The notes below the pieces were generated by a model. The model ran no database searches and was not told the origin of the DNA. It saw only the letters and a list, made by a program, of their open reading frames with translations. The position numbers and the translations under genes were made by a program. Of a stretch of 64,000 nucleotides of DNA, positions 16,973 through 35,611 are shown piece by piece; position 1 is the stretch's first letter; every line of letters begins with the position of its first letter. This DNA comes from Aquaticitalea lipolytica (lineage in GTDB: Bacteria > Bacteroidota > Bacteroidia > Flavobacteriales > Flavobacteriaceae), in contig NZ_BMIC01000001.1 of NCBI RefSeq assembly GCF_014641635.1, forward strand, positions 1,370,641-1,434,640. Reading direction: 5' to 3'.

Positions 16973-18036
16973 TATTTCTTCAGAGTTTCAAAAATGTTTC
17001 TTAAATCCTTTTTATAAGGTAAATGATCTGCTCTTCCCTTTTTAAAGATATCATTACTATTTCCTTGTCCTTTTCGTAACGCTTTTTGCTCTTCGTAAGG
17101 TAATTGATGTATTTCCATACAGGTAGAAGAACAACAATTATTCATTTTTTCTTTACAATCATCACATTGAATAAATAGTAAATGGCATGCTTCATTTGCG
17201 CAATTTGTATGTAAATCGGCAGGACTACCACACTGATGACATTGAGCAATGACGTCATCAGAAATACGCTCAGATCGACGCTCGTCAAAAACAAAATTCT
17301 TTCCTATAAATTTGTTTTCCAACCCTTTTTCATTGACCTGTCTTACATAATTGATTATTCCTCCATCGAGCTGATATACATTTTTAAACCCTTTATGTTT
17401 ATAATATGCGCTAGCTTTTTCACAACGAATTCCACCAGTACAATACATCACCAGTTTTTTATCCTCTTTGTGGTCTTTTAAGTCTTCTTCAATAATATCT
17501 AACGATTCTCTAAATGTGTCAACATCTGGAGTTATTGCATTTTTAAAATGCCCTATTTCGCTTTCATAATGATTACGCATATCAACCAAAACCGTATTCT
17601 CATCTTCAATTAATTTATTGAATTTTTCTGCATCAACGTGAATTCCTTTATTAGTAACATCAAAGGTGTTATCGTTAAGCCCGTCAGCGACAATTTTGTC
17701 ACGCACTTTTACCTTTAGTTTTAGAAATGAAAAATTATCATGCTCTATGGCAATGTTTAATCTCACGTTTTCTAAAAATGTAATGGTATCTAAATGGTTT
17801 TTAAATTGATGAAAGTGATCTGCAGGAATGGATAGTTGTGCATTAATACCTTCGTGAGCGACATATATTCTTCCTAAAACTTCTAGCTCATTCCAAGCTA
17901 AAAACATATGGTTTCTAAAGATTTCGGTATTGCCAATTTTGGCATATTTATAGAAAGAGATAGTTAAACGGTCTTTTCCCGCTTTTTCAATAAGTTCTGC
18001 TCTTTCTTTAGCACTTAAGTTATTGTACAGTTGCAT
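16972..18036 (-). CDS. trhO: tRNA uridine(34) hydroxylase, rhodanese family
   Basis: A 354-residue TrhO (YceA) protein, which hydroxylates uridine 34 of tRNAs in an oxygen-dependent reaction on the way to 5-alkoxyuridine. N-terminal acylphosphatase-like half (HEGINAQLS), then a rhodanese domain (VLVDMRNHYESEIGHFKNA) with active Cys199 in the loop CTGGIRC. The C-terminal part has a cysteine cluster (CHQCG, then CxxxxC, CDDC, NCCSSTC) that could bind zinc, and is somewhat longer than in E. coli. The Rossmann-like TrhP system is a different route to the same modification. It is a single gene on the minus strand. Confidence 0.9.
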   Translation of the reverse strand: MQLYNNLSAKERAELIEKAGKDRLTISFYKYAKIGNTEIFRNHMFLAWNELEVLGRIYVAHEGINAQLSIPADHFHQFKNHLDTITFLENVRLNIAIEHDNFSFLKLKVKVRDKIVADGLNDNTFDVTNKGIHVDAEKFNKLIEDENTVLVDMRNHYESEIGHFKNAITPDVDTFRESLDIIEEDLKDHKEDKKLVMYCTGGIRCEKASAYYKHKGFKNVYQLDGGIINYVRQVNEKGLENKFIGKNFVFDERRSERISDDVIAQCHQCGSPADLHTNCANEACHLLFIQCDDCKEKMNNCCSSTCMEIHQLPYEEQKALRKGQGNSNDIFKKGRADHLPYKKDLRNIFETLKK

Positions 18037-18116
18037 GCTATACTAATTTTATAAGGTTAAAGATTAATTTTTTGCAAAGTTACAATTTTTGAATAATTAC
18101 AAGCTTGTTAAAAACA

Positions 18117-18152
18117 AAAAAAGCACCAAAGATATCTCTAAAGTGCTTTTTT
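18117..18152. terminator. Intrinsic terminator serving the small ORF at 18212
   Basis: AAAAAAGCAC and GTGCTTTTTT pair around an interior containing AGATATCT. On the minus strand it lies about 60 bases downstream of the 30-codon ORF and 80 bases upstream of trhO, so it would end a transcript of the small ORF and insulate trhO. Confidence 0.7.
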
Positions 18153-18211
18153 GAGGACTAACTCGTTATTAATATTTTTTTAAATTTTCATTCTTAAAAA
18201 TACTACACGAG

Positions 18212-18304
18212 TTACCCTCCATCGGCTTTACAATTGCTATTAACAGTAATAGCAACTGAAACGCCTAATGCGTTATTAAAAATAATTTTTCTAAAAAATT
18301 TCAT
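18212..18304 (-). CDS. Possible 30-residue peptide gene
   Basis: ATG to TAA, 30 codons, beginning MKFFRKIIFNN and ending NSNCKADGG. The basic start (K2, R5, K6) is followed by a mildly hydrophobic middle (ALGVSVAITV), a single Cys and a terminal Gly-Gly. It is too short for usual gene callers. Support: an independent terminator follows it, there is no other gene in this 456-base gap, and an inverted repeat lies upstream. Against: no clear -33/-7 pair was found, and a 30-codon frame can occur by chance. I do not recognise the peptide. A peptide signal, a small membrane-active peptide or a leader are all possible. Confidence 0.4.
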   Translation of the reverse strand: MKFFRKIIFNNALGVSVAITVNSNCKADGG

Positions 18305-18347
18305 CTGTAAAACTTTTATTAGTTAATATCATCAGATAAAATAGATT

Positions 18348-18361
18348 GTCATTAAAATGAC
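18348..18361. promoter_or_regulatory. Inverted repeat between the small ORF and recA
   Basis: GTCATT and AATGAC separated by two A's, 44 bases upstream of the small ORF and 71 bases before the recA -33 element. On the minus strand it directly precedes a weak -7-like TATTTTAT, which is a typical operator position. Confidence 0.3.
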
Positions 18362-18431
18362 CTTTTTCATAGCAAGATTTCCCAATCTTATTATGTAGAT
18401 GCAAAAAGTATAAAAAGGTTGCGTCATAAAA

Positions 18432-18462
18432 TTGTAAGATGCAAAAAGAAGTAGTATTTTAG
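18432..18462 (+). promoter_or_regulatory. Candidate recA promoter
   Basis: TTG, 20 bases, TATTTTAG, ending 30 bases before the recA start. It differs from TAnnTTTG by an A in the seventh base. The same TATTTTAG version is used by the candidate small-RNA promoter at 47968. No LexA-like box was recognised. Confidence 0.55.
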
Positions 18463-18492
18463 CTATCCGAAATAAGAAAAAGATCGAATAAA

Positions 18493-19509
18493 ATGAGTAG
18501 TGAAAAAGAAGCAAAATTAAAAGCATTAAAGCTAACTTTAGATAAGTTAGACAAAGCCTATGGTAAAGGAACAGTAATGAAAATGAGCGACCAAGCAGTG
18601 GTTGATGTCGATGCCATTTCTTCTGGCTCGTTAGGTTTAGATATTGCTTTAGGAGTTGGTGGCTATCCTCGTGGTAGGGTAATAGAAATTTATGGTCCTG
18701 AATCCTCAGGAAAAACCACATTAACATTACATGCTATTGCTGAAGCACAAAAAGCTGGTGGTATTGCTGCGTTTATTGATGCTGAGCATGCTTTTGATAG
18801 AACTTACGCACAAAAACTAGGTGTAGATATTGACAACTTAATTATCTCACAGCCAGATAATGGAGAACAAGCATTAGAAATTGCTGATAATTTAATTCGT
18901 TCAGGAGCTATTGATATTGTTGTTATTGACTCGGTTGCGGCGTTAACTCCAAAAAGTGAAATTGAAGGTGAAATGGGAGATTCTAAAATGGGACTTCATG
19001 CACGTTTAATGTCTCAAGCATTAAGAAAATTAACAGGATCGATAAGCAAAACCAATTGTACCGTAATCTTTATTAACCAATTACGTGAAAAAATTGGTGT
19101 TATGTTTGGAAATCCTGAAACAACAACTGGTGGTAATGCATTAAAGTTTTATGCTTCTGTTCGTTTAGATATAAGACGATCTACACAAATTAAAGACACA
19201 GATGGTAGTGTTTCTGGTAATAAAACCAGAGTAAAAGTTGTAAAAAATAAAGTTGCACCACCATTTAAAACAGCAGAATTTGATATTATGTATGGTGAAG
19301 GTGTGTCAAAAGTTGGTGAAATACTAGATATAGCAGTAGAAAACGAAATCATAAAAAAAAGTGGCTCGTGGTTTAGTTATGAAGACACAAAATTAGGGCA
19401 AGGAAGAGATGCTGTAAAAGCACTTATAAAAGACAATCCAGAGCTTATGGATGAGCTCGAGGCTAAGGTTAGAGTAATTGCAAAAGCAGCCTCGTCATCT
19501 GATGATTAA
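18493..19509 (+). CDS. recA: Recombinase RecA
   Basis: The DNA strand-exchange protein of homologous recombination and DNA-damage response, 338 residues, of normal length. Walker A GPESSGKT at residues 68-75, Walker [10 protein letters not shown], the L1/L2 DNA-binding loop region with [19 protein letters not shown], and the C-terminal domain are all present. No intein or insertion is seen. It is monocistronic, between its own promoter and a strong terminator. Confidence 0.98.
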
Positions 19510-19510
19510 A

Positions 19511-19549
19511 AAACAAAAAAACTCGAAATTTTCGAGTTTTTTTGTTTTT
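19511..19549. terminator. recA terminator
   Basis: AAACTCGAAA and TTTCGAGTTT with extended A and T runs on either side, starting right after the recA stop codon. The symmetric flanks would also work on the minus strand. Confidence 0.9.
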
Positions 19550-19618
19550 ACACGCAACCTTTATAATATTAATGCATCTACAACCTATAAAGGTATTTAT
19601 ATCAAAATATTTTATTTT

Positions 19619-20032
19619 ATGAAAAAACTATGTTTTTTATGTGTTATAGTGCTTTCGTTAGTATCGTGTAGTATTGATAACGATAATTCTAACGATTTTT
19701 ATTATGAAATTTTACCTGTTGAGAGTGTTGATATTCCAACAGAATTTGTTTTAGGTGAGACTTATGAAATTACTGTTGGCTATTATAGGCCTTCTGGGTG
19801 TTACATTTTTAGTGATTTCTATTATGCAAGCGAGCTTAACCAAAGAACAGTTGCAATAATAAATGCAGTTTACCCAAATCAAAATTGTCAAACTTTTGAA
19901 AATGAATTAGTAGAAGTTTCTTTTAACTTTATGGTAAATAACAATGGAACTTATGTATTTAGGTTTTGGCAAGGTCAAGATGATAATGGAAATGATTTAT
20001 ATTATATTGTAGAAGTTCCTGTAGTGAATTAA
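19619..20032 (+). CDS. Small lipoprotein, function unknown
   Basis: A 137-residue predicted lipoprotein. The signal peptide MKKLCFLCVIVLSLVSC ends in the lipobox LVSC with Cys17. The mature part begins with an acidic, Asn/Asp-rich tether (SIDNDNSND) and then looks like one beta-rich domain with conserved-looking GETYEITVGYYRPSGCY and a C-terminal YYIVEVPVVN. The frame is open upstream to 19478 but that part crosses the recA terminator, so the ATG at 19619 is chosen. It lies 33 bases before the sigma factor gene on the same strand and could be part of its regulon or operon. I do not recognise the family. Confidence 0.75.
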   Translation: MKKLCFLCVIVLSLVSCSIDNDNSNDFYYEILPVESVDIPTEFVLGETYEITVGYYRPSGCYIFSDFYYASELNQRTVAIINAVYPNQNCQTFENELVEVSFNFMVNNNGTYVFRFWQGQDDNGNDLYYIVEVPVVN

Positions 20033-20065
20033 TATAAAAATTTGGATAATTAATACTTTAAATGT

Positions 20066-20608
20066 TTGAGTTTAGAACAACTCATAGAACAGTGTAAAAA
20101 AAATGATGCTAAAGCTCAAAGCCAAATATATAAACTCTATGCGAGTAAATTGTTTTCGCTTTGCTTAAAGTATTCTAAAAACTATGCAGAAGCTGAAGAT
20201 AATCTGCAAGATGCTTTTGTGACTATTTTTACCAAAATATCACAATATAAAAGTAAAGGTTCTTTGGAAGGTTGGATGAAACGAATAACTATTAATACTG
20301 CTTTACAGCGTTATAGAAGTATAGGTGTTTTTGATATTGTAAATGAAGATAAAATAGAAGACGTATCTGTAGAAATTGATGAAGATGCAGTAAGTATAGA
20401 TTTTTTATTAGGCATTATTCAAGAATTGCCAGATAGATATAGGTTAGTTTTTAATTTATATGCTTTAGATGATTATTCGCATAAAGAAATAGCAGAAATG
20501 CTAGATATTACAACCGGAACCTCAAAATCTAATCTTGCGCGTGCAAGAATGATTTTAAAAGAAAAAATTGAACATTACAAAGCGAGCATAAGCTCGCAAA
20601 CATTATAA
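20066..20608 (+). CDS. ECF-type RNA polymerase sigma factor
   Basis: A 180-residue sigma-70 family protein with region 2 (LYASKLFSLCLKYSKNYAEAEDNLQDAF, then the -10 recognition segment GSLEGWMKRITINTALQRYR) and region 4 (LPDRYRLVFNLYALDDYSHKEIAEML, helix-turn-helix ending TTGTSKSNLARARMILK). Regions 1 and 3 are absent, as in ECF factors. The start is a TTG at 20066; the nearby ATG at 20062 is out of frame and stops after 11 codons. Its stop overlaps the ATG of the next gene (TAATG), so the two products are made together. This pairing resembles a sigma/anti-sigma unit. Confidence 0.9.
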   Translation: MSLEQLIEQCKKNDAKAQSQIYKLYASKLFSLCLKYSKNYAEAEDNLQDAFVTIFTKISQYKSKGSLEGWMKRITINTALQRYRSIGVFDIVNEDKIEDVSVEIDEDAVSIDFLLGIIQELPDRYRLVFNLYALDDYSHKEIAEMLDITTGTSKSNLARARMILKEKIEHYKASISSQTL

Positions 20609-22131
20609 TGAGCGACAAAAAACATATAGACAGACTCTTTCAAGAGAAGCTAAAAGATTTTGAAGCCAATCCTAGCGATGCAGTTTGGGAAAACATTCAC
20701 AGTAGTTTGCATGATGAGAAACGCAAAAAACGCCGAATAATCCCAATCTGGTGGAAACTTGGTGGTGCAGCAGCAATTTTATTGCTAATGCTTGCTATTG
20801 GTAACACTGTGTTTAACAATAACGAAAATAATGACTCTATAAACACAGTTGTAGATACAGAAAACAATTCTAATAGTGATGCATTTAAAAACAACTCTAC
20901 AGATAAAAATGCGTCTAATGAGGTTGATTTCGATTCTAATAATAACGTTTCAGATAAAGAAACAAATTCTGATGAAACCCTTAATAACGCCTCTTCATCA
21001 GGAAAAAATCTAATAAATTCATCAGTAAACAACCAAAGCAAAATAGCTTCAACGAAACCTGATTTGTCATCAAAAATATTTGATAAAAACAATAATAAAC
21101 AAAAAGAGTTAAGTAAAAACAATACATCAAACACCTTAAATAATAAAAAGGATGTTGTTGCAGATAATTCTTCAAACCCATTTAATTCAGAAAAGAATTC
21201 AAAAACTAAATCTGAAGACAATATAATTCCAGACTATCTTAAATCTGCATCTAAAAATGCAGTTGCTAGTAGTGATGAAAAAACTGAAGATTCTGTCAAT
21301 AAAGAAGAAGAAATCATTACAAACGAAAAAACTATAGAAGACGCTATTGCTGAAACTAATACAACTGAAGAAAAAGAAAAAGAAGAGAAACTTAACAGGT
21401 GGAACATAACACCAAATGTTGCGCCTGTTTATTTCAACACTATTGGTAAAGGGTCTCCAATAGATAATCAGTTTGTAAATAATTCAAAAAAAGGTGACAT
21501 AAATATGAGTTATGGTATTGAGGGTAGTTATGCCATTAATAAGAAATTTAAAATTAGAGCAGGAGTTAATAAAGTTGAATTAGGATATGCTACCAATAAT
21601 GTTATTTCTTATACAGATATTAATGAAACATCTGCCTTAGGGTCAATTAATGTATCCAGCTCTAATCAACTGAGTCATGTAAACATTAATCAAAATGCTC
21701 AAAACACAACGTTTATAAGTGCTCAAAGTTTTAATAGAAATGATGTTCCAGAAATTTTAAATACTAAAGAAAAAGGTTCGTTAGACCAACAATTTGGTTT
21801 TATTGAAGTGCCTTTAGAAATTGAATATACAGTTGTAGATAAAAAAATTGGGCTTAATGTTATAGGTGGTTTTAGTACCTTTTTTACAGATAAAAATGAA
21901 GTTTATTCTGTAGTAGAAGGCAATAGAATTCTTATTGGTGAAGCCAATAACCTTAACGATGTTAGCTATAGTGCTAATTTTGGTGTAGGAATAAATTATA
22001 ATGTTTCAGATAAAATAAAATTAAATCTTGAACCAAAATTCAAGTATCAAATAAACACATTTAATGACACGTCTGGTGATTTTCAGCCATATTTTATTGG
22101 CGTTTACACAGGCTTAAGTATTAAGTTTTAG
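20608..22131 (+). CDS. Predicted trans-envelope anti-sigma-like/outer-membrane barrel protein
   Basis: A 507-residue protein with an unusual layout. Residues 1-46 are a soluble, charged segment (DRLFQEKLKDFEANPSDAVWENI) of the kind seen at the start of flavobacterial anti-sigma-like proteins. Residues 47-68 are one membrane helix (IPIWWKLGGAAAILLLMLAIG). Residues 69 to about 262 are a low-complexity Asn/Ser/Lys/Asp/Glu-rich linker. From about 264 to the end is an outer-membrane beta-barrel-like domain with alternating strands and a C-terminal Phe (TGLSIKF). There is no cleavable signal peptide. Coupled translation with the ECF sigma gene suggests it holds or senses for that sigma factor. That function is inferred. 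Confidence 0.75.
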   Translation: MSDKKHIDRLFQEKLKDFEANPSDAVWENIHSSLHDEKRKKRRIIPIWWKLGGAAAILLLMLAIGNTVFNNNENNDSINTVVDTENNSNSDAFKNNSTDKNASNEVDFDSNNNVSDKETNSDETLNNASSSGKNLINSSVNNQSKIASTKPDLSSKIFDKNNNKQKELSKNNTSNTLNNKKDVVADNSSNPFNSEKNSKTKSEDNIIPDYLKSASKNAVASSDEKTEDSVNKEEEIITNEKTIEDAIAETNTTEEKEKEEKLNRWNITPNVAPVYFNTIGKGSPIDNQFVNNSKKGDINMSYGIEGSYAINKKFKIRAGVNKVELGYATNNVISYTDINETSALGSINVSSSNQLSHVNINQNAQNTTFISAQSFNRNDVPEILNTKEKGSLDQQFGFIEVPLEIEYTVVDKKIGLNVIGGFSTFFTDKNEVYSVVEGNRILIGEANNLNDVSYSANFGVGINYNVSDKIKLNLEPKFKYQINTFNDTSGDFQPYFIGVYTGLSIKF

Positions 22132-22178
22132 GTTTTTTTAGTTGGTTAGATAGTTATTGCAAACTCGCAATGATGACG

Positions 22179-22208
22179 AAAAGCTGCTCTGTGCCAAGAG
22201 CAGCTTTT
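22179..22208. terminator. Bidirectional intrinsic terminator
   Basis: AAAAGCTGCTCT and AGAGCAGCTTTT form a perfect 12-base stem around a 6-base loop between the convergent barrel protein and plsC genes. Its right end touches the plsC stop codon. Confidence 0.88.
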
Positions 22209-22945
22209 TATGTGTTATATTTTTGAAGTTGGTTGTAAATAACACTTCTAGATTGTTCATTTATTGTTTTTGTATCCTTTGTTGTTAAATCTTTTGTGTT
22301 TAAAAAATGATGAATTTTAACTCTCATTTTCCCAGGACCACCACTAAAAAACGTATATGAAAAACGCTTTTTATTATCTGCAAAAGTCATTGGAACAATT
22401 GGAATTTGATGATTGACGGCTAACCGAAAAGCACCATCTTTAAAGTCATCTAAAATAATATGCTCTTCTGGTACTCCACCTTCAGGGAAAATACAAATAC
22501 TCAACCCTTGCTTTAAGCGTTTTTGAGCTCTTAAAAACACTGCCTTTCTGCTTTTTTCAGAACTTCTATCTACCAGAATACAAGTGCGTTTATAGAAAAA
22601 TCCAAAAAGAGGAATTTTTGCCAACTCCTTTTTACCAACAAAAACAAAAGGGTTTTTAACGCTAACCAACATAAGCATTATGTCTGCCATTGAAGTATGA
22701 TTAGCAATAAACATATAGCTTTTTAAAGGATCTGGTGTTTGTTCTCTTTCTATAATCCACCTAAAACCCATACCAATTAAAATAAACTTTGCCCAAAATC
22801 TAGCAAGCTTAAAAAAGAATGGGTACCACTCTTCCTTTAAAATAGAAATTAAAAGTATAGGAAACAATATAACTATTGGCAGCCCAACAAGTATGTAGAA
22901 CCAAATACGATATAAAAGCCAGAAAATATATTTAATAACAATCAT
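22208..22945 (-). CDS. plsC: 1-acyl-sn-glycerol-3-phosphate acyltransferase family protein
   Basis: A 245-residue membrane acyltransferase that adds the second acyl chain to lysophosphatidate in phospholipid synthesis. N-terminal hydrophobic segments (about residues 6-45) precede the PlsC domain with motif I NHTSMAD (HxxxxD), motif II FKRTCILVDR and motif III FPEGGVPEEH. The frame is open three codons further upstream from a TTG, but those codons lie in the -7 promoter motif, so the ATG at 22945 is preferred. It diverges from trpS. A related lysophospholipid or ornithine-lipid acyltransferase role is possible. Confidence 0.9.
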   Translation of the reverse strand: MIVIKYIFWLLYRIWFYILVGLPIVILFPILLISILKEEWYPFFFKLARFWAKFILIGMGFRWIIEREQTPDPLKSYMFIANHTSMADIMLMLVSVKNPFVFVGKKELAKIPLFGFFYKRTCILVDRSSEKSRKAVFLRAQKRLKQGLSICIFPEGGVPEEHIILDDFKDGAFRLAVNHQIPIVPMTFADNKKRFSYTFFSGGPGKMRVKIHHFLNTKDLTTKDTKTINEQSRSVIYNQLQKYNT

Positions 22946-22951
22946 GCTCGC

Positions 22952-22959
22952 CAAAACTA
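22952..22959 (-). promoter_or_regulatory. -7 element of plsC (near-leaderless)
   Basis: Minus-strand TAGTTTTG matches TAnnTTTG exactly and ends only six bases before the plsC ATG. The transcript would begin at or next to the start codon. No TTG is at the proper -33 distance. Confidence 0.45.
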
Positions 22960-34517: not shown

Positions 34518-35027
34518 TTATTGTTTGTCTGGGCGAGCACTTGGGTAGTGTTCTGGTTGAATTTCAACTATATTTTCAATTTTATAGTACTGTGTTTTGT
34601 TTCCGTTTTTATAACTGATAACGCATTCATTCTCTTTAAGTTTAAAAGGAATTTTCGTGGTTTTTTTTGGAAGTGCGTTACCATACTCTTCTTGAGCATT
34701 ACCACTCATTATTATGTCTGTTTTCTGGTTAAATTCAGTTCTAAAATATGCTACATATATAATTTTTTCACCTCCTTTACGCTGCATTTTAGCCACTTTG
34801 TCACGAAAATACACTGAGTCTAACTGAATAGTATTAGGTAGCTCTGATGGTGTTGAAATAAATAAATTTATTCCAGATCCTCCTCCTTGTACTCCCGCAA
34901 CCCAACTTTGACAATATACTTCATCAAACACTATTGGTGCTGCTTTTTGTAACTTCTGGGCTGATGAGCAATTCGTAAAACTAATTAAGATAATTATACT
35001 AAAGACTAATGTTGTAAAAGCTTTCAT
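34518..35027 (-). CDS. Exported lipoprotein, paralog of the 35126 gene
   Basis: A 169-residue predicted lipoprotein (signal peptide with SFTNC, Cys20). The longer frame starting at 35078 adds 17 codons without signal-peptide character, so the ATG at 35027 is used. The mature part shares with its neighbour the pattern VYxQxWxAGxxGGGxGINxF, a DSVYFRDKVAKMQ block, and the ending FKLKENECVISYKNGNKTQ YYKI. The two genes are therefore tandem paralogs. Function is unknown. Confidence 0.75.
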   Translation of the reverse strand: MKAFTTLVFSIIILISFTNCSSAQKLQKAAPIVFDEVYCQSWVAGVQGGGSGINLFISTPSELPNTIQLDSVYFRDKVAKMQRKGGEKIIYVAYFRTEFNQKTDIIMSGNAQEEYGNALPKKTTKIPFKLKENECVISYKNGNKTQYYKIENIVEIQPEHYPSARPDKQ

Positions 35028-35078
35028 TATATGGCAATTTATTGTTCTATAAAGATAATAAATCAAATAGTGTTCCAT

Positions 35079-35125: not shown

Positions 35126-35611
35126 TTATTCTATGTCTACAGTTACTACTCTAGATGGAGGACCATTTTCATAGTAAATACCTTCTCGTTCTGTAACATT
35201 TACAATTTTAAAATATTTAGTTTCACCATCTTCAATATAGCTAATCACACATTCATTACCAGATAATTTAAATGGATATTTAACCGCTTTGGTTATTGGT
35301 GTAGAATCGTATGGAGATCTGTTTTTTAAAATTGCAGAATACATTGATCTTTCTTTAGTAAGCTTGCCTTTTAGGTTTCTAAAAAACACACTATCTACAA
35401 CTACTTTGTTGTTACTGTTAAGATTAGGGAAGTAAATATTAATTCCTGTACCACCAACTTTAATTCCTGCATACCATTCTTGAAAGTAAACACGATCTAA
35501 TTGCAAAGTTGTTTTTTCTTGTAATTTATACTTTGTGCTAGAACACTGATATGTGCTCATAACAGCAATAGTAAAAAAGAGTAAGTAGGTTACTTTTTTT
35601 ATTGTTTTCAT
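35126..35611 (-). CDS. Exported protein, paralog of the 34518 gene
   Basis: A 161-residue exported protein. The signal peptide ends near STYQC (Cys23), a poor lipobox, so lipidation is uncertain. It shares VYFQEWYAGIKVGGTGINIYF, VDSVFFRNLKGKL and FKLSGNECVISYIEDGETK with the next gene downstream. It has its own -7 element and terminator. I do not recognise the family. Confidence 0.75.
   Translation of the reverse strand: MKTIKKVTYLLFFTIAVMSTYQCSSTKYKLQEKTTLQLDRVYFQEWYAGIKVGGTGINIYFPNLNSNNKVVVDSVFFRNLKGKLTKERSMYSAILKNRSPYDSTPITKAVKYPFKLSGNECVISYIEDGETKYFKIVNVTEREGIYYENGPPSRVVTVDIE

Follow-up and report, generated by a model that had tools for sequence, protein, structure and literature searches.

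A flavobacterial ECF sigma factor paired with a predicted trans-envelope anti-sigma factor of the Dma/EcfO-Reo kind

In Bacteroides, Dma proteins have been described in which an N-terminal sigma-binding segment, one transmembrane (TM) helix, a disordered tether and a β-barrel follow one another in a single chain, and Dma3 carries a sigma domain at its own N terminus (PMC13088901). Similarly, Reo of Phocaeicola vulgatus is said to reach from the cytoplasm to the surface (PMC9308784, PMC13114119). Bacteroides proteins of such anatomy are anti-sigma factors, and their loss works via the sigma factor (PMC13088901, PMC9308784, PMC13114119). The effects of dma2 loss require das2; loss of dma1 increases both nigD1 and vesicle output, while loss of dma2 increases vesicle output and not nigD1 (PMC13088901). 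Moreover, insertions in the P. vulgatus anti-sigma gene switch its regulon on (PMC9308784), and a NigD lipoprotein appears when Reo is lost (PMC13114119). Here, we describe a pair of an extracytoplasmic function (ECF) sigma factor and a long membrane protein of this kind in Aquaticitalea lipolytica (Flavobacteriaceae), encoded in a stretch of 64,000 nucleotides of contig NZ_BMIC01000001.1 (positions 1,370,641 to 1,434,640, forward strand), which we refer to as the window and in whose numbering coordinates are given. By computation, we established the gene order and coupling of the pair, the domain anatomy and homology of the long protein, a promoter-like motif that is conserved, and the genes that follow it.

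Control of an ECF sigma factor by an outer-membrane event is known from FecI-FecR-FecA, in which the event is passed to an inner-membrane anti-sigma factor and on to the sigma factor, and in which the barrel is a separate TonB-dependent receptor; in the window protein, by contrast, the barrel belongs to the anti-sigma chain itself. RpoE-RseA, likewise an ECF sigma factor with a membrane anti-sigma factor, has the link to envelope stress and the autoregulation that we propose for the window pair, but RseA lacks a barrel, its chain ending in the periplasm. The Dma systems are closer, resembling the window pair in domain order, in the adjacent ECF sigma gene, in the small operon (three genes for Dma2) and in belonging to Bacteroidota (PMC13088901). 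The window pair differs from them as a flavobacterial branch beside recA in which the unit opens with a lipoprotein gene, and for which we predict a regulon of varied lipoproteins and propose a promoter motif. With EcfO-Reo of Bacteroides fragilis and P. vulgatus it shares an anti-sigma factor described or predicted as reaching from cytoplasm to surface and the proposed sensing of outer-membrane stress (PMC9308784, PMC13114119). The EcfO-Reo regulon likewise includes surface lipoproteins, there of the NigD family (PMC9308784, PMC13114119); the genome of A. lipolytica has no match to NigD_N and the lipoprotein encoded beside the sigma factor matches NigD in the signal peptide only.

Three plus-strand genes, for a lipoprotein, the ECF sigma factor and a 507-codon open reading frame (ORF), lie between recA and an acyltransferase-like gene. 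The names recA, trhO, trpS, dprA, SusC and "acyltransferase" are labels that we assigned by eye, with no family search behind them. For comparison, titled genomes were scanned; at least 520 of 595 candidate stretches were confirmed, and the best 80 loci, called titled loci, were used. These are presumably mostly from Flavobacteriaceae, judging by their genus names; some are labelled only Bacteroidetes or Bacteroidia, and two are metagenome-assembled genomes titled Algicola. The features of the unit are as follows.

19552-19580, plus strand: promoter-like motif ACGCAACCTTT-N11-TGCATCTA, core GCAACC-N15-CATCT, ahead of the operon (YATCT form of the core in 79 of 80 titled loci)
19619-20032, plus strand: lipoprotein gene, 137 amino acids, lipobox LVSC by eye, first gene of the unit (tblastn, alignment A5, AlphaFold2)
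20066-20608, plus strand: ECF sigma factor, 180 amino acids, TTG start (Pfam, NCBIfam, alignment A3)
20608-22131, plus strand: presumed trans-envelope anti-sigma factor of the Dma/Reo kind, 507 amino acids (alignments, AlphaFold2, profile comparison)
20608-20715, plus strand: residues 1-36, two short helices with an invariant W27, presumed to bind the sigma factor in the cytoplasm (alignments A1 and A2, profile match)
20746-20814, plus strand: residues 47-69, single TM helix with a basic N side (AlphaFold2, hydropathy)
20815-21330, plus strand: residues 70-241, disordered tether, presumed periplasmic (pLDDT, low identity, variable length)
21334-21381, plus strand: residues 243-258, short helix just ahead of the barrel (AlphaFold2; I243 near-invariant in alignment A2)
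21400-22128, plus strand: residues 265-507, predicted 8-stranded outer-membrane β-barrel (AlphaFold2, Foldseek, VIA-align 2, Pfam)

The original prediction, which was made from the letters of the window, had placed the two ORFs at 20066-22131, taken the first for an ECF sigma factor and read the TAATG overlap as coupled synthesis, and on each of these points our analysis agrees with it. The sigma ORF matches Sigma70_r2 (E 1.2e-12) and Sigma70_r4_2 (E 1.2e-15) in Pfam; among the NCBIfam matches listed, it passes the general sigma70-ECF model only, and with 79.6 bits it stays under the cut-off of TIGR02985 (126.4). An alignment of 25 sigma sequences (A3) has a mean column identity of 82%. The TAA stop of the sigma gene and the ATG of the long gene share the A at 20608. 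Each of the 80 titled loci has a sigma-like ORF directly upstream of the long gene, and the distance from the end of this ORF to the start of the long gene ranges from a 4-nt overlap to a 3-nt gap, with a 1-nt overlap as the commonest junction (35/80). Because this junction is kept in all titled loci, the coupling of the two genes is not due to chance. Relatives of the long protein are present in 35 of the 60 genomes searched, that of A. lipolytica included, and a profile search of the phylum gave matches in at least 74 of 296 genomes, many via the N-terminal part only. By tblastn, the lipoprotein gene and recA were each found in 78 of the titled loci and the acyltransferase-like gene in 77. 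Loci L083 and L106 are without the lipoprotein gene; the loci without recA, L048 and L114, both have little over 1 kb of sequence on the 5' side of the long gene.

The anatomy of the long protein was derived from alignment A2, which comprises the window protein and its relatives from 55 of the 80 titled loci (56 sequences) and also served as the AlphaFold2 input. In the model, helices span residues 5-16, 24-35, 47-69 (23 residues) and 243-258, pLDDT is below 50 at residues 71-241, and barrel strands, eight of them long, occupy residues 265-506. Confidence is middling for the N-terminal helices and the TM helix (pLDDT 50-76 in blocks of 10 residues), and mostly above 89 in the barrel, with loop blocks down to 50 and 68. 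The hydropathy peak of the whole chain falls inside residues 41-70 in 30 of 30 proteins scanned, including the window protein, and a basic stretch precedes the hydrophobic helix. According to the positive-inside rule, a basic flank marks the cytoplasmic side of a membrane helix, and the basic stretch ahead of helix 47-69 would thus suit an N-in topology. Asn, Ser, Lys and Thr abound in the linker, which is poorly conserved, the mean majority-residue fraction being 0.28 compared to 0.75 in residues 1-36 and 0.64 in residues 260-507. Counted from where the TM helix ends up to W265, it measures 195 residues in the window protein and, across alignments with 29 and 56 members, 104-271 in relatives. 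Given a length of about 0.36 nm per residue in an extended chain, even the shorter linkers could cross a periplasm.

The C-terminal domain is predicted to be an 8-stranded barrel of the OmpA/OmpW type. Its best counterparts by Foldseek and VIA-align 2 are OmpA, NspA, OmpW and OprF (Z 13.9-15.5, rmsd 2.2-3.6), while soluble β-barrels (PsbO, YceI-like) reach only a Z of about 7.5 in the VIA list, in which absence of a family does not by itself exclude it. At E values up to 0.1 in Pfam, OMP_b-brl was matched by 48 and OMP_b-brl_2 by 30 of 56 family proteins; among Pfam barrel families, the window protein itself matches OmpA_membrane alone (E 0.0058), under the cut-off. The final residue, Phe, is invariant in alignments A1 and A2. 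Searching the PDB by sequence with the long protein gave no match at E up to 1, and no FecR family was among its Pfam and NCBIfam matches at E up to 1. The one inner-membrane helix, the long Asn/Ser/Lys-rich linker, here mostly predicted disordered, and the barrel-like C-terminal domain had all been proposed from the sequence beforehand, together with a soluble periplasmic fold of the C-terminal domain as the outcome that would speak against the proposal; structure prediction returned the outer-membrane barrel. Thus, the observation of a sigma factor next to a one-chain protein of trans-envelope type is confirmed. As for the idea that one polypeptide spans the whole envelope, the domain order holds as a prediction, but the class had already been described in Bacteroides.

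Homology to the described proteins was assessed with stand-ins for Dma and Reo: in Bacteroidia genomes that carry NigD, we took the Dma-like proteins whose genes follow those of the closest sigma relatives. A search for NigD_N (PF12667) in 395 genomes of the class gave 13 positive genomes at E 0.001, 12 of them over cut-off; across the phylum, no match was obtained in 118 genomes. The sigma profile A3 was run in 12 of the 13 positive genomes, and of the 30 loci fetched 27 were read. Closed downstream proteins with the expected anatomy were found at 17 of these (alignment A4), and the downstream proteins at the remaining ten were cut, fused, short, or of another kind. In profile comparisons, the barrels of the window family and of the Bacteroidia Dma-like proteins match at 99.3% (E 6.2e-21). 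The N-terminal segment with the TM helix (residues 1-72) matches that of the 17 Dma-like proteins in hhalign at 98.5% (E 2.9e-15), compared to 9.9, 27.7, 52.2, 0.5 and 1.3% for five other proteins behind sigma-like genes, which are single sequences and hence a weaker control. The segment that the original prediction had called anti-sigma-like is, therefore, homologous to the same segment of Dma/Reo-like proteins. Altogether, these matches support homology and suggest that the long protein is a further member of the described Dma/EcfO-Reo anti-sigma class and not a new class.

Two further arrangements in Bacteroidia bear on the pair. At loci L244 (553 codons) and L255 (574 codons), in two genomes, a natural single ORF encodes the sigma factor, TM helix, tether and barrel, apparently without the N-terminal anti-sigma segment. 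These ORFs resemble Dma3, while the sigma and anti-sigma factors of the window are encoded by two overlapping genes; such fusions would speak for a functional link of sigma factor and long protein. Sigma matches occur close to NigD genes, at a distance of no more than about 0.6 kb, in 8 of the 12 genomes; the sigma match follows NigD on the same strand in six of these and is divergent from it in two. At three of the read loci (L243, L245, L252) NigD, sigma and Dma-like genes follow in a row. A lipoprotein gene ahead of the sigma gene thus appears to be a recurring arrangement, although, by profile comparison, the flavobacterial lipoprotein is not NigD. At L260 and L261, NigD is followed by the sigma factor and a short anti-sigma factor without a barrel, and NigD is therefore not tied to barrel-type anti-sigma factors only. 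The N-terminal segment with the TM helix also occurs in frames of about 170-300 codons without a matched barrel (e.g., G000:C7:68347-68970), which suggests that other sensor domains have been joined to this segment as well. The A. lipolytica genome encodes a second lipoprotein-sigma-anti-sigma unit (L008 983-3154; G000:C1, about 905.3-907.5 kb), in which the long-protein relative has 388 codons; the window motif is not among the sites of this genome at that unit.

The region 5' of the lipoprotein gene contains ACGCAACC, 15 bases mostly ending in G or A, and CATCTA. All but one of the 80 titled loci (79) have the core GCAACC-N15-YATCT in the interval from 1500 to 500 nt before the long gene; the exception, L114, has just 662 nt of sequence in that interval. 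At L083 and L106, where the lipoprotein gene is absent, the motif lies directly before the sigma gene, about 110-150 nt ahead of it. This conserved position would fit autoregulation. In the A. lipolytica genome, the exact core GCAACC-N15-CATCT occurs at 9 sites and its reversed control at none; a relaxed pattern gave 8 sites, 6 of them free of mismatches, compared to 0 for the reversed control, and a control with shifted spacing (one extra free base) gave two poor sites at up to 2 mismatches. A similar sequence (GCAACA or GCAACT, 15 or 16 bases, CATCT or CATCA) lies 61-72 nt before the sigma match in 4 of 23 Bacteroidia loci (L235, L238, L239, L248).

In a first genome set of 59 relatives, CGCAACC-N15-CATCT was found in 30 of the 34 genomes with the long protein and in none of the 25 without it; within the family, the counts are 28 of 30 and 0 of 6. 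We also searched a second set of 33 genomes, 32 of which came from the phylum profile list together with weak and no-match members of those groups; 23 of the 33 carry the motif. The link between motif and sigma factor appears strong near the relatives of the window and looser in more distant genomes. Of the 9 sites in the A. lipolytica genome, 7 precede lipoprotein or other envelope genes, namely, five lipoprotein genes (that of the operon included), a gene for an outer-membrane-like protein and one for a protein that we take to be SusC-like; of the other two, one belongs to the short unit beside trhO and one lies within a coding region. We classed 74 sites, the 9 own sites and all 65 in relatives lying away from the long gene, with 526 flanking ORFs as background. 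The first ORF behind the site was lipoprotein-like at 38, had a possible signal peptide at 17, had neither at 3 and was lacking in suitable form at 16. By the same rule, the 526 flanking ORFs include 33 that are lipoprotein-like and 135 with a possible signal peptide. Lipoproteins are, therefore, enriched behind motif sites (38/74 vs 33/526, Fisher), with p-values that are overstated because sites in related genomes are not independent, genes recur among the background ORFs of neighbouring loci, and the rule used for lipoboxes is a crude one. A literature search for the motif, or for an ECF21 promoter motif, found neither in text, with figure logos and most subscription journals outside its scope; a different ECF motif, the CGT box of T9SS genes, is described in PMC9723704. 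Neither the conserved motif nor the lipoprotein regulon that we predict was found in the print covered, and in this sense both are new relative to the published Dma/Reo work.

On this basis, we infer the topology in the cell, the binding of the sigma factor and its sign, the signal, the release step and the reading of the motif by this sigma factor. We suggest that one helix anchors the long protein in the inner membrane with its N-terminal segment in the cytoplasm, where this segment would bind the sigma factor at the inner membrane and block it. The disordered tether would cross the periplasm and the 8-stranded barrel would sit in the outer membrane. A disturbance there, i.e., damage, bad assembly or a ligand on the barrel, would change or cut the chain and in that way free the sigma factor, perhaps by proteolysis near the membrane, for which V82-D83-T84 is one candidate place. 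The freed sigma factor would then read ACGCAACC-N15-CATCTA promoters, among them that of its own lipoprotein-sigma-anti-sigma operon, that of the short unit beside trhO and those of mostly lipoprotein and envelope genes. We consider this model as a whole, a sigma/anti-sigma pair of the Dma/EcfO-Reo kind with outer-membrane sensing and motif-driven surface lipoprotein genes, to be likely.

This mechanism fits the Bacteroides data, in which loss of Reo or dma1 raises a NigD lipoprotein. It also fits a report on Flavobacterium johnsoniae, in which TamL depletion harms the outer membrane and outer-membrane lipoproteins increase (PMC12045153); the text consulted of that report cites the Dma paper without discussing a pair of the window type. 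The envelope-spanning anti-sigma class has been studied in gut Bacteroides. In the flavobacterial branch, many species have the same kind of machine beside recA, together with a sharply defined promoter-like motif and a short list of predicted targets, and the signal of the barrel and the targets of the sigma factor thereby become directly testable in genetically tractable flavobacteria. To our knowledge, little is known about sigma-E counterparts in the phylum, and the pair suggests a possible outer-membrane response for it. In enterobacteria, sigma-E-dependent small RNAs tune outer-membrane genes. By extension, the Flavobacteriaceae pair could be a dedicated circuit of surface-lipoprotein homeostasis, in which the barrel senses the operon lipoprotein or the general lipoprotein load via the continuous chain, and the sigma factor resets lipoprotein supply and drives a short RNA or peptide unit beside recA that tunes outer-membrane genes; we regard this elaboration as rather unlikely.

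Several other explanations were weighed. The long protein could be made whole but normally be cut in the linker, so that barrel and anchor are separate and act by association or not at all. A tether that is long, predicted disordered and poorly conserved is easily cut, and V82-D83-T84, just outside the membrane, is fairly conserved (0.86, 0.64, 0.73) and may be a protease site. Nevertheless, anchor and barrel stay in one stop-free frame in 80 of 80 titled loci, in 17 Bacteroidia proteins and in the sigma fusions, and we judge routine cutting to be unlikely. That the C-terminal domain stays out of the outer membrane and serves as a sensor in the periplasm or as an uninserted probe of misfolding seems very improbable to us: while a barrel with an inner-membrane anchor is unusual and the OmpA_membrane match of the window protein (E 0.0058) is weak and under cut-off, the top structural matches are OmpA, NspA and OmpW at Z 14.4-15.5, compared to about 7.5 for soluble barrels, the C-terminal Phe is invariant, and Pfam outer-membrane barrel families match most family proteins. 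We give equally little credence to the long protein activating or delivering the sigma factor. Its sign of action is not readable from sequence and coupled translation suits either sign, but the published relatives are anti-sigma factors: the effects of dma2 loss need das2 (PMC13088901), and the P. vulgatus regulon is switched on when its anti-sigma gene carries insertions (PMC9308784).

Finally, the motif could belong to another sigma factor or regulator, with the window pair as merely one of its targets. The genome has 21 Sigma70_r2 matches, including the sigma factor of the second lipoprotein-sigma-anti-sigma unit, and another of these could read the motif; 7 of 15 strong long-protein carriers in the second set are without an exact site at the pair (G126, G142, G164, G187, G198, G273, G289); and overlap of ECF regulons has been discussed for Flavobacterium psychrophilum (PMC9723704). 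Against this stand the operon motif in 79 of 80 titled loci, the absence of the motif from all 25 first-set relatives in which no long protein was detected, and the similar sequences that precede the sigma gene at four loci of Bacteroidia. We, therefore, hold ownership by another regulator to be unlikely and prefer reading of the motif by the sigma factor of the pair. Several observations weigh against this preference and against the proposed model more generally. By a hand count, only 8 of the 15 strong carriers have a site within 3.6 kb upstream, and 19 of the 23 Bacteroidia loci have no such motif near the sigma gene, a count that rests on lax patterns with no shuffled control; because of these two counts, the link between motif and sigma factor is not firm further out. 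In the first genome set, four long-protein carriers are without the exact motif, and co-occurrence is partly trivial, since the long gene itself follows within 3.6 kb at 42 of the 107 sites in relatives, which are operon or divergent copies. G210 has one motif site and no long-protein match, and most of the 25 sites in G160 are copies of two repeated sequences. Possible non-lipoprotein signal peptides are not enriched behind the motif (17/74 vs 135/526), 16 of the 74 sites are without a suitable ORF, and several sites lie inside coding sequence. Moreover, having passed only a general model, the sigma factor is not established as a member of the ECF21 group, and the comparison with Dma1, Dma2 and Reo was made by description and via stand-ins.

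In the original prediction, an outer-membrane event would be linked to the sigma factor with no separate relay protein; the conserved lipoprotein at the head of the operon could be such a relay. C17, C61 and C90 are invariant in alignment A5, and AlphaFold2 gives an Ig-like β-sandwich with a pLDDT of 90.6. A fold search returned weak, mostly Ig-like matches and no PDB match at E 0.001 or better. In Pfam and NCBIfam, the lipoproteins and the 30-residue peptides of the short unit described below had nothing over cut-off save the general lipoprotein attachment site, which was matched by 6 of 49 lipoproteins (best E 0.00011). We considered identity with NigD and rejected it: the A. lipolytica genome (G000) has no match to PF12667, and in a profile comparison with nine NigD-like proteins the alignment is confined to the signal peptide.

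On the other side of recA, a second copy of the motif precedes a short unit directed towards trhO. The features flanking the operon are as follows.

18493-19509: recA, named by eye; reads away from the second, minus-strand motif copy
18396-18424, minus strand: second motif copy, divergent from recA and towards trhO; 68 of 80 titled loci have the YATCT form of the core
18212-18304, minus strand: ORF of 30 codons downstream of the second motif copy; a similar ORF accompanies the divergent motif in 25 of 66 sequences, counting the window
18116-18152, minus strand: terminator-like hairpin and T run between the short ORF and trhO, from the sequence; GTGCTTTTT in 49 of 69 corresponding segments
22208-22954, minus strand: acyltransferase-like gene, divergent neighbour, named by eye

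Near the start of the short unit, TTGCTATGA is present in 45 of the 69 segments. The ORF reads MKFF...CKADGG, with CKADGG mostly terminal. In a codon comparison, position 3 is the most variable, which favours a peptide, yet residue changes outnumber silent ones (3070 vs 1356 codon pairs), and the unit may act as an RNA instead. An Rfam scan of 17900-22300 gave five matches, all below gathering scores, which we take as chance. Elsewhere in the A. lipolytica genome, at L150 (G000:C1:1347392), the motif, a lipoprotein gene and a gene that by eye is acyltransferase-like follow each other in one direction. Within the window, two adjoining minus-strand genes (34518-35078 and 35126-35611) encode small proteins that, by eye, are alike and lipoprotein-like.

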